A DNA stretch of 37,812 bases from Spirochaetota bacterium (GTDB lineage: Bacteria; Spirochaetota; Spirochaetia; Treponematales; UBA12059). The notes under the pieces are model-generated. The model worked only from the letters and a program-made list of their open reading frames with translations, was not told where the DNA came from and made no database searches. Both the position numbers and the translations under genes were made by a program. The stretch lies in NCBI GenBank assembly GCA_003247225.1, contig QKAK01000191.1, forward strand, positions 1-37,812. The letters run 5' to 3'. Positions 1 to 2,852 of this stretch are shown here, in pieces (position 1 is the first letter of the stretch; each line of letters begins with the position of its first letter).

Positions 1-446
1 TAGGGCCGTCTTGAGCGACGCCGCGGGAGAAGCGCGAGCTATGCGTCGGAGTTCCGACTTGGATGCATCCGATAGGGCGGTCGATGAAGGCGTGATAAAG
101 AACTGGTCGCCCTCGAGCCGCAACGGCTCGCCTGGTTCGCCGTCGACGGCGATCATCGGATGGTCCGAGAACGCCGCGTCGTCGGGTAAGGATGCGCCGT
201 ACGAGGCGATGCGGACTATCGAGTCGACCCGCCTCGAATAATACCCGGCCCACGGAACGCCGGCGGACGAAAGGGCCTCGAGCGCCAGCCTGAGGCCCAG
301 GTAGCGGTTATCTATGCCCTTAAGAAGGCCGTCGAGAGGCTCGCGATGGCCATCCGAGGCTTTTTTTTTTGGCTTATGGCCAGGAGGCCTTCGTTCCTAG
401 CGGCGAGCGCGCTTGAGCGGCTCGCCGCCTTCTCCAGTAATCCCAT
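1..446 (-). pseudogene. Unknown conserved-looking protein, 5' part, frameshifted at an A10 tract and cut by the window edge
   Basis: I do not recognise the family. An ATG at 446-444 overlaps the inferred stop of the acidic gene upstream as TAATG. It opens with MGLLEKAASRSSALAARNEG and reaches an A10 tract (T10 at 361-370 on the given strand). Read literally, the frame then leaves and stops at 312. One extra A, or two fewer, would join it to a second frame that is open without a stop from 360 to 1 (120 codons). That frame has ordinary protein composition, for example the stretches LLKGIDNRYLGLRLALEAL and VPWAGYYSRRVDSIVRIA. The simplest reading is one gene interrupted by a homopolymer change: a sequencing error, a phase-variable tract or a true mutation. 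The right-strand ORF at 11-241 is its shadow. Confidence 0.6.
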
Positions 447-2852
447 TAAAGCAACCCCAGATCGTCGAATAGGCGTTTGTACGTGTCGTAATATTCCGTA
501 ATATTCGCTGGAGGCGAATTCCTCGATTTTTTCTTCAGGTAGCGAGGCGAGCAGCTGATCGAGATAGACCAGCACTGACTTAACGTCGCGCTTCAGCTTA
601 TCAGGCACCGAATCGGTTCCGGTATCGGCCGCGGCCTTGGCCTTCGGAGGCGCCGCCGCGGGCATAGCCGGCTCGGCCGACGCTTCGGCGACGGTTTCCG
701 ACGGCTCGATAGCTTCCGGGATCTCGTCGGCTATTATTTCATCGATCGGGCTCTCGAGCTCGACGGTACCGGATTCATCGGCGATAGCTTCCTCTTCGAC
801 CGGCTCGAGTTCCTCGGCGCCCTCTTCCTGAGCGGATCCGACGAACAGCGAATCGTCGAGGCTCGTGGCGATCTCGTCAGGATGGTATGACAGATCCAGG
901 CCCTGGACCGTTTCGGGCGTTTCCAGTACGAGCGGCGTCTCTTCTACGAGAGGCTCCTCCTCCGCGGCGAGATCGTCGCTGAAATCGTCGATCGACAGCT
1001 CCTCGAGATCCTCGTCGTCCTGAAGCAGCTCCTCGACGGGCTCGGCGGGATTCTCGGCGTGCAGCTCGAGGCCGCCTAGCTCCTCCGGCTCGATGACCTC
1101 TTCGAGGTCCATCGCGTCCTCTACCTCGTCGATAGGCTCCTCGAACGAGTCGACCGTCGAGACGACCGGCGCGGCTTCGGCGTCTATGTCGAGCACCAGC
1201 TCCGTATCGTCGTCGGCGGCTTCGATGACGGGCAGGTCCTCGTCGCCTTCCTCGAAGGCTGGGGCTAGGTCGATGTCGAGGTCGGACTCGCTCGGTTCGA
1301 CGAGCGGGACGTCCTCTATCGGCATGCCCTCGAGCTCCTCGAATTCGTCCGTCTTGATCTCCTCGTCGAGGAAGCTCGTGTCCTCGGGGCCGGAGGTAAG
1401 CGGCGTGACGCCGTCGAGCGGCTCGACGGCCTCGATGCCCAGCTCGCCGTCCGCGGATATATCGGATACGTCGTCGAGCTCTATGGTCTCGATGCCGGGC
1501 TCCGACGGCTCCTCGTAGACGCCGTCCTCCGGCAGGAGCTCGACGTCGTCTGGCACCGACAGCTCGGGAGCCTCGGCCTCGGGTTCCTCGGACACGGTCT
1601 CCTCGGTGAAGTCCGCGGTGTTGAGGATATTGTCTAGCTCGTCACCGGTCAGGGCGATCGTGTCGTCGTCCTCGTCGTCGAAGAACCCGCCGGACGCGTC
1701 CGCTATCTCTTCGGCGGACTCGTCCTCGGCGTCGGCCTCTCCGACCGCGGCCCCGGCGGCCTTGATGCTGCTCAGCTGGTCGCGCAGGCTGACGAGCTCC
1801 TGCTTGATCGAAGACAGTTCGCTGGCTATCTGCTTGAGCAGGTCGGATGAGGGGGCCGAGGAGGCGAGGTCGTCGGATACGGCCCTAACGTCGTCGAAGC
1901 CCGAGTCGCCGGAACCGATCGATACGCTCTCTATCTCGAGGTCCGGGATGATGCCGATGCTCGCGTCGTCGTCGGAGTCGATGAACGAGTCGAGCGATAT
2001 CCCTTCCGAGTCGTCGACGACCTCCGGCTCGGGCCGCTCCGCGCGAGGGGCCGGGGCGGGCTTGGATTCGGGCTCGTCGACGCCTATCGAGTCGAGGTCT
2101 ACCGACTCGAACTCGGAGGTCACGTCGAGCATGTCGTCGTCTGGCGAGAACGAGCCAGCCGCTTCCTCTGACTCGGCGGACGGGATGGTGTCGTCGAACT
2201 GGAGGTCGATATCGAGGGATTCGAATTCCTCGTCGGCGGCAGGCGGCTCGGCGGCGTCCGCGGCGAACCGTTCGATGTCCTCGAGCGCGGGGCCGGCCGG
2301 GGTATCCTCGTCGAGGCCGAAGTCCTCGATGCTTATCTCGGTGGTCTCGAACGAGTCGCTCGAGGCGGATCGCCGTTCGGCCGGGGAGGGCGCGGCCTCC
2401 GGGGCTTCGGCCTTGACCTCGTCGAAATCGAGGTCGTCGAGGGACATATCGATGACGGTGCTCTCTACGACGCCTTCGTCCAGTTCGCCCTGGACCTCGG
2501 AGAGGTCCGTCTCGGCGACGCCCGACATGTCGTCGAGCGGAGCGAGCGACTCGAATTCGTCGAAGTCCACGCCCGCGGAATCGACGGCTTCGCCGCCGAT
2601 CGGCTCTTCGGACGGCGCTTCGACGGCCGTATCCAGATCCGGCAGGTCGAACGAATCGAGCAGTTCCTCTTCCTCGGCGAGCAGTACCGCGTCGGAGCCT
2701 TCGGCCGAAGCCTCGGCTGGAGACCCTTCGGCGGCTAGCGTGTCGTCGGTCAGGTCCTGAGGCTCTGCCTTGACCCAGACGCCGTATCGTTCAAGATCGT
2801 GCTCGGGGGTAGGAATGGGATCTGGCTTCCCTTGCGGGGTCTTATTCTGCAT
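312..2852 (-). CDS. Very acidic low-complexity protein (D/E/S/V-rich), 3' end frameshifted
   Basis: The literal frame gives 846 aa. It begins MQNKTPQGKPDPIPTPEHDL, then ERYGVWVKAEPQDL, followed by about 650 residues that are mostly Asp, Glu, Ser, Val and Leu. Residues ~330-360 contain a short SDLLKQIASELSSIKQEL coiled coil. A compact conserved-looking C-terminus (VPDKLKRDVKSVLVYLDQLL) ends the protein. I think the native protein is 798 aa and stops at 446: removing one copy of the 10-bp duplication at 487-506 gives SEYYDTYKRLFDDLGLL and an exact TAATG junction with the next gene. No signal peptide or membrane segment is visible, so it is probably cytoplasmic. A GGAG lies 9 nt before the ATG. 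Function is unknown. The YGVWVK and LDQLLASLPE blocks resemble uncharacterised spirochaete proteins, from memory only. Confidence 0.75.
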   Translation of the reverse strand: MQNKTPQGKPDPIPTPEHDLERYGVWVKAEPQDLTDDTLAAEGSPAEASAEGSDAVLLAEEEELLDSFDLPDLDTAVEAPSEEPIGGEAVDSAGVDFDEFESLAPLDDMSGVAETDLSEVQGELDEGVVESTVIDMSLDDLDFDEVKAEAPEAAPSPAERRSASSDSFETTEISIEDFGLDEDTPAGPALEDIERFAADAAEPPAADEEFESLDIDLQFDDTIPSAESEEAAGSFSPDDDMLDVTSEFESVDLDSIGVDEPESKPAPAPRAERPEPEVVDDSEGISLDSFIDSDDDASIGIIPDLEIESVSIGSGDSGFDDVRAVSDDLASSAPSSDLLKQIASELSSIKQELVSLRDQLSSIKAAGAAVGEADAEDESAEEIADASGGFFDDEDDDTIALTGDELDNILNTADFTEETVSEEPEAEAPELSVPDDVELLPEDGVYEEPSEPGIETIELDDVSDISADGELGIEAVEPLDGVTPLTSGPEDTSFLDEEIKTDEFEELEGMPIEDVPLVEPSESDLDIDLAPAFEEGDEDLPVIEAADDDTELVLDIDAEAAPVVSTVDSFEEPIDEVEDAMDLEEVIEPEELGGLELHAENPAEPVEELLQDDEDLEELSIDDFSDDLAAEEEPLVEETPLVLETPETVQGLDLSYHPDEIATSLDDSLFVGSAQEEGAEELEPVEEEAIADESGTVELESPIDEIIADEIPEAIEPSETVAEASAEPAMPAAAPPKAKAAADTGTDSVPDKLKRDVKSVLVYLDQLLASLPEEKIEEFASSEYYGILRHVQTPIRRSGVALMGLLEKAASRSSALAARNEGLLAISQKKKPRMAIASLSTAFLRA
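361..370 (-). repeat. A10 homopolymer inside a coding frame
   Basis: Ten consecutive T on the given strand (A10 in the coding sense). It encodes KKK in the literal reading and separates two frames that otherwise look like one gene. A pure A run is unusual here because Lys is normally written AAG. Such tracts change length by slippage, and they are also common consensus errors in long-read assemblies. Confidence 0.9.
487..506 (-). repeat. Perfect 10-bp tandem duplication that shifts the reading frame
   Basis: The unit cgtaatattc occurs at 487-496 and again at 497-506. Removing one copy restores an ending of SEYYDTYKRLFDDLGLL and a stop at 448-446 that overlaps the next ATG. With both copies the frame moves by +1 and runs 134 nt further. 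The duplication therefore looks recent. Confidence 0.9.

Follow-up and report, generated by a model that had tools for sequence, protein, structure and literature searches.

The window analysed in this study is a 37,812-nt stretch, contig C64 of a 224-contig spirochaete MAG with a genome size of 3.38 Mb. Two overlapping genes were found on the minus strand at its first positions. The upstream gene (446–2852, minus strand) is translated into an acidic, low-complexity protein with a C-terminus that is conserved in relatives, and no significant family was found for it in Pfam or NCBIfam. The ATG of the second gene (446–444) overlaps the TAA of the upstream gene (448–446) in a TAATG arrangement. 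The zero-frame ORF of the second gene (312–446, minus strand) has a predicted short product of 44 aa, MGLLEKAASRSSALAARNEGLLAISQKKKPRMAIASLSTAFLRA, and its counterparts in relatives are 24–78 aa long. Within this ORF lies an A10 tract (361–370, minus strand), which reads CAA AAA AAA AAG in the ATG frame and contains the heptamer A_AAA_AAG. Relatives keep A9–A12 at this site. Past the A10, a continuation frame (1–360, minus strand) has no stop codon between 360 and the window edge and can be joined to the ATG frame by one extra nucleotide. The copy of this frame in contig C27 of the same genome extends to base 904 (L005:137–904, 256 codons). The Rfam scan of the window and the comparison with the plasmid collection showed no match. 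An earlier note on this DNA had described the tandem 10-mer, the TAATG, the A10 and the open frame beyond it, and all of these were confirmed on the minus strand.

Two tandem copies of the 10-mer gaatattacg lie at 506–497 and 496–487 (minus strand). The duplication (506–487) splits the C-terminal segment of the upstream gene, DQLLASLPEEKIEEFASSEYYDTYKRLFDDLGLL, which is strongly conserved among the relatives. With one copy of the 10-mer removed, the upstream gene's own frame ends in ...SEYYDTYKRLFDDLGLL at the TAA at 448–446, and the conserved C-terminus is LPEEKIEEFASSEYYDTYKRLFDDLGLL. The long ORF of 846 codons (2852–312) exists only because the duplication merges the two reading frames. The two points of the earlier note that the native arrangement is a pair of coupled genes and that the 846-codon frame is an artefact were thus borne out.

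The first base of contig C27 corresponds to window 496, where the second copy of the 10-mer starts; C27 lacks the first copy and reads on with only one. The terminal overlap between the two contigs (1–496, minus strand) is 496 bp long with 98% identity, and contains 10 substitutions and no indel. Because ten substitutions separate them, C64 and C27 are strain variants of one locus at an assembly junction. At least two strain variants of the locus are present in the MAG on separate contigs (window 1–496 and L005 1–496), a mixing of strains at the ends of contigs. If two assembly pieces overlapped by 10 bases and were left unmerged, a contig would be expected to start precisely on the repeat boundary. 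The presence of at least two strain variants would also allow the duplication to be a real allele of one strain. We consider this improbable, since the start of C27 falls exactly on the repeat boundary, and the duplication would destroy the conserved C-terminus and is absent from all relatives examined, which have a single copy. The duplication, which the earlier note had allowed to be an assembly error, is therefore probably an artefact made where contigs of different strain variants meet, and is a matter separate from the A10.

The A10 is present in both strain-variant contigs. The only A10 or T10 in the whole 3.38-Mb genome is the one at this locus, carried by C64 and by the overlapping C27. 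Among the family members, A9 or T9 was found in 7 of 2264 flanking 220-nt windows, compared with 20 of 20 at the tract site. The second-gene locus is the sole A10 in five genomes (G002, G005, G010, G011 and G396), and four others (G012, G014, G015 and G021) have A10s at this locus and in dnaX and nowhere else. The longest A run at the GC-rich loci has either at most 7 or 9–10 A's, and never 8. Genome G019 (L188, L189) has two A10 runs, each after at least nine C's, an unusual compound homopolymer.

Orthologous loci were collected from 20 genomes of the window's family; order-wide scans and named scans supplied those of other genomes. Nearly all genomes behind the counts of tract-bearing orthologues are MAGs. 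An out-of-frame A9–A12 tract was found in the orthologue of 19 of the 20 family genomes and of eight genomes of other groups, about 40–145 nt past the upstream stop. The family loci comprise 17 with A10 out of frame, two with A9 out of frame and one (L078) with A10 in frame. The eight loci outside the family carry A10–A12 out of frame and come from at least three other orders; seven belong to three small orders other than that of the window, and the eighth is L101. The ATG frame of the tract-bearing orthologues reaches a stop after 24–78 codons, and the conserved protein goes on in another frame. Altogether, the tract is out of frame in 27 of 28 orthologues, and exactly one extra nucleotide is needed in 25 of 28, these loci being related and not independent trials. 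Two A9 orthologues, L035 and L053 (both MAGs), need the opposite shift direction.

Within the three small orders, the out-of-frame tract is absent from the Sediminispirochaeta-like L179/L180 and from L186. In the loci examined from other families of the window's order, the gene is in one frame or missing, and no out-of-frame tract was found apart from a doubtful one in Brucepastera. In this locus (L108, from the complete genome of Brucepastera parasyntrophica) the frame is broken twice, at an A9 and a T8. The breaks may be homopolymer sequencing errors or signs of a decaying gene, and the locus was left out of the tract counts because of the second one, at T8. The A runs of the AT-rich or termite-gut loci L084, L086, L088, L094 and L096 are in frame and were ascribed to composition.

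The earlier note had proposed a natively intact second gene whose A10 is either an error or phase-variable. Neither proposal is supported by an A10 in both contigs and an out-of-frame tract in 19 of 20 family genomes and in eight genomes that belong to other orders. A pair of errors in assembly or sequencing within 150 bp would be in keeping with the 10-bp repeat at an assembly junction and with the error-prone nature of homopolymers, of which Brucepastera L108 may be an example. Against this, 26 other genomes, assembled independently, have the A10 or an equivalent out-of-frame tract, and the offset is almost always the same; this explanation is very improbable. Phase variation, in which slipped-strand mispairing at the A tract would turn the full-length protein on and off heritably, suits a long homopolymer close to the 5′-end and a tract length that varies between species (A9–A12). 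A contingency locus would be in frame in a fair share of genomes, and here only 1 of 28 loci is in frame against one third at random (P about 2e-4, ignoring relatedness). The offset is the same in 25 of 28 loci, and both strain contigs of this genome carry A10. We regard phase variation as highly unlikely. The recurrence of an out-of-frame A10 with one offset points to programmed recoding over an on/off switch or an error.

The continuation frame is under purifying selection. Its dN/dS is about 0.25 between close pairs, and 0.231/0.899 for the window genome and L034. C64 and C27 differ by 4 synonymous and 5 replacement codons, a comparison too short to be informative about selection. The truncated template frame could suggest a pseudogene with a dead remnant downstream, yet the dN/dS of about 0.25 indicates selection on precisely that frame and the gene is retained across genera, so that a pseudogene is scarcely credible. 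Phase variation, a pseudogene and two assembly errors are all disfavoured. An internal translation start past the tract was rejected for most loci, as there is no start codon near the tract in the continuation frame: the first ATG, GTG or TTG lies 204 nt beyond the tract in C27 and 100–360 nt beyond it in many loci. A start codon lies 6 nt beyond the tract in L128 and L129 and at most 60 nt beyond it in L037, L053, L035, L043 and L103, and judging from these positions an internal start may be used in the seven.

We propose that the second gene probably carries a conserved programmed-recoding site, most likely acting by transcriptional slippage, and that the 10-bp duplication is a separate assembly artefact. 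The gene's reading frame starts at the ATG at 446 and enters the A10. The template frame ends as the predicted 44-aa peptide, and the remainder of the protein is encoded in the frame that one added nucleotide opens (equivalent to a −1 shift). RNA polymerase would slip on the A10 and add A's to part of the transcripts. The default, unslipped transcripts would give the short N-terminal peptide, and the slipped transcripts a longer protein, in which N-terminal helices are followed by a GAF and a degenerate GGDEF domain. Ribosomal −1 shifting on A_AAA_AAG may add to this.

Transcriptional slippage calls for a homopolymer run of about nine or more at the frame junction, and runs of A9–A12 were found in the 28 orthologues. 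It also calls for a conserved out-of-frame tract followed by a selected downstream frame, as seen here (27 of 28; dN/dS about 0.25). Added nucleotides are the common type of RNA-polymerase indel in A/T runs (PMC5574713). The need for one extra nucleotide in 25 of 28 loci fits slippage because RNA-polymerase insertions in A runs go in that direction. Slippage matters from a run length of about nine (PMC1088944), and for this reason the run lengths of at most 7 or 9–10 in GC-rich loci also fit it. The in-frame tract of L078 and the lack of A10 in dnaX of the window's own genus speak against the slippage reading.

Programmed −1 ribosomal frameshifting on A_AAA_AAG or A_AAA_AAA, in place of transcriptional slippage, would join the same frames. 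The slippery heptamer is in phase: the family A10 orthologues read NAA AAA AAA AAG/C/T in the zero frame, with CAA/GAA AAA AAA AAG in most A10 loci. The −1 direction is the one needed and fits 25 of the 27 out-of-frame loci. Escherichia coli dnaX uses the A_AAA_AAG heptamer, and its −1 frameshifting resembles the second gene in the in-phase heptamer and the direction; the second gene differs in its over-long tract, in that no conserved stimulatory structure was seen and in the two orthologues with the other direction. We prefer slippage because all tracts have 9–12 A's, though six are enough for the heptamer, because added nucleotides are the common RNA-polymerase indel, because the shift required in L035 and L053 is the opposite one, and because the 11 tracts folded show no shared stimulatory structure. 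Folding of the 80 nt downstream of 11 tracts revealed no consistent structure (z −1.9 to +1.4); internal Shine–Dalgarno sequences were inspected by eye alone. According to Antonov et al., opposite shift directions among orthologues are a mark of slippage and not of ribosomal shifting (PMC3711429). Ribosomal frameshifting as the sole mechanism is thus possible but unlikely. Since A_AAA_AAG is also a classical ribosomal −1 site, transcription and translation are inseparable here by sequence alone.

A comparison is provided by dnaX in the same family. In 9 of 20 family genomes, dnaX has an A10 that is in frame for tau and meets a TGA almost at once if one A is added (L202–L204, L207, L209, L212, L213, L216 and L219). 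By analogy, an added A in these genes would give gamma, which is a Thermus-type gamma/tau arrangement. The A9 run of Thermus dnaX has the same arrangement and yields gamma and tau by transcriptional slippage (PMC1088944), and Antonov et al. reported A10 dnaX genes with a related arrangement (PMC3711429). Thermus thermophilus dnaX and the second gene share an A9–A10 run in a chromosomal gene where added A's alter the product, but the template frame gives the long product in the former and the short product in the latter. In L217, the dnaX of G008, the A10 is near the gene end, an unusual position, with no immediate stop in the slipped frame. The nine A10 dnaX genomes form a built-in comparison that makes the recoding mechanism directly testable.

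Citrobacter rodentium tssM1 (A11) and Shigella mxiE are further known cases of transcriptional slippage; both have a truncated template frame and require slippage for the longer protein, as proposed for the second gene. In tssM1, both product forms and their ratio matter (PMC4256274). These two are secretion-system genes, whereas the second gene is GAF/GGDEF-like, carries its tract close to the 5′-end and is found with it throughout one family and in several orders. In a partial literature search, no paper was found on spirochaete transcriptional slippage or on frameshifting of the second gene.

The AlphaFold2 model of the in-frame orthologue L078 (pLDDT 87) contains two N-terminal helices, a GAF domain and a C-terminal domain. 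The GAF fold covers residues about 45–198 (Z 13.4, rmsd 3.6, 153 aligned, against 3trc). The match list of the C-terminal domain modelled alone (pLDDT 93) was full of GGDEF domains, of which the best was 4yme (Z 10.0, rmsd 4.2, 130 aligned). The GG(D/E)EF catalytic signature is absent from alignment A3, and for this reason an active cyclase is unlikely. The downstream protein had nothing significant in Pfam or NCBIfam, and a profile search of PDB sequences gave only matches with E = 0.15, to a GGDEF-EAL protein. On the structural models, the downstream frame is predicted to encode a PelD-like protein with a GAF and a degenerate GGDEF domain. The domain order (GAF, then a GGDEF-like domain without the GGDEF signature) is that of PelD, and PelD is among the structural matches, although it was not among the matches in the sequence-profile search of solved structures. 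In the L078 model, the N-terminal helices precede the tract and the GAF domain follows it; the short product would thus comprise hardly anything beyond these helices.

The next two genes in C27, directly after the recoded gene, are MptE-like (PF01973; L005 867–2468 and 2461–4173). The MptE-like family PF01973 includes flagellin-glycosylation factors, and on this basis we would guess that the recoded gene is linked to motility. Slippage might further serve as a regulated switch. The short GLLxKA...KKK peptide would then have its own role, occupying, for example, a partner of the full-length GAF/GGDEF-like protein. The ratio of short to full-length product would be set by RNA polymerase stutter and nucleotide pools, and would tune a cyclic-dinucleotide-type signalling protein in many spirochaetes. 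We regard such a switch as doubtful.

To our knowledge, few chromosomal, non-mobile bacterial genes need recoding for their full-length product. The locus is most likely, from the sequence comparisons, a conserved recoding site of a type already known, in a gene family without a Pfam or NCBIfam name, beside a probable assembly artefact. The protein of the second gene is probably misannotated widely, because a gene caller working frame by frame would cut the gene short, divide it in two or merge it with the adjacent gene, as happened here. The proposed recoding site was found in one family, in about ten of its genera, and in at least three orders besides.
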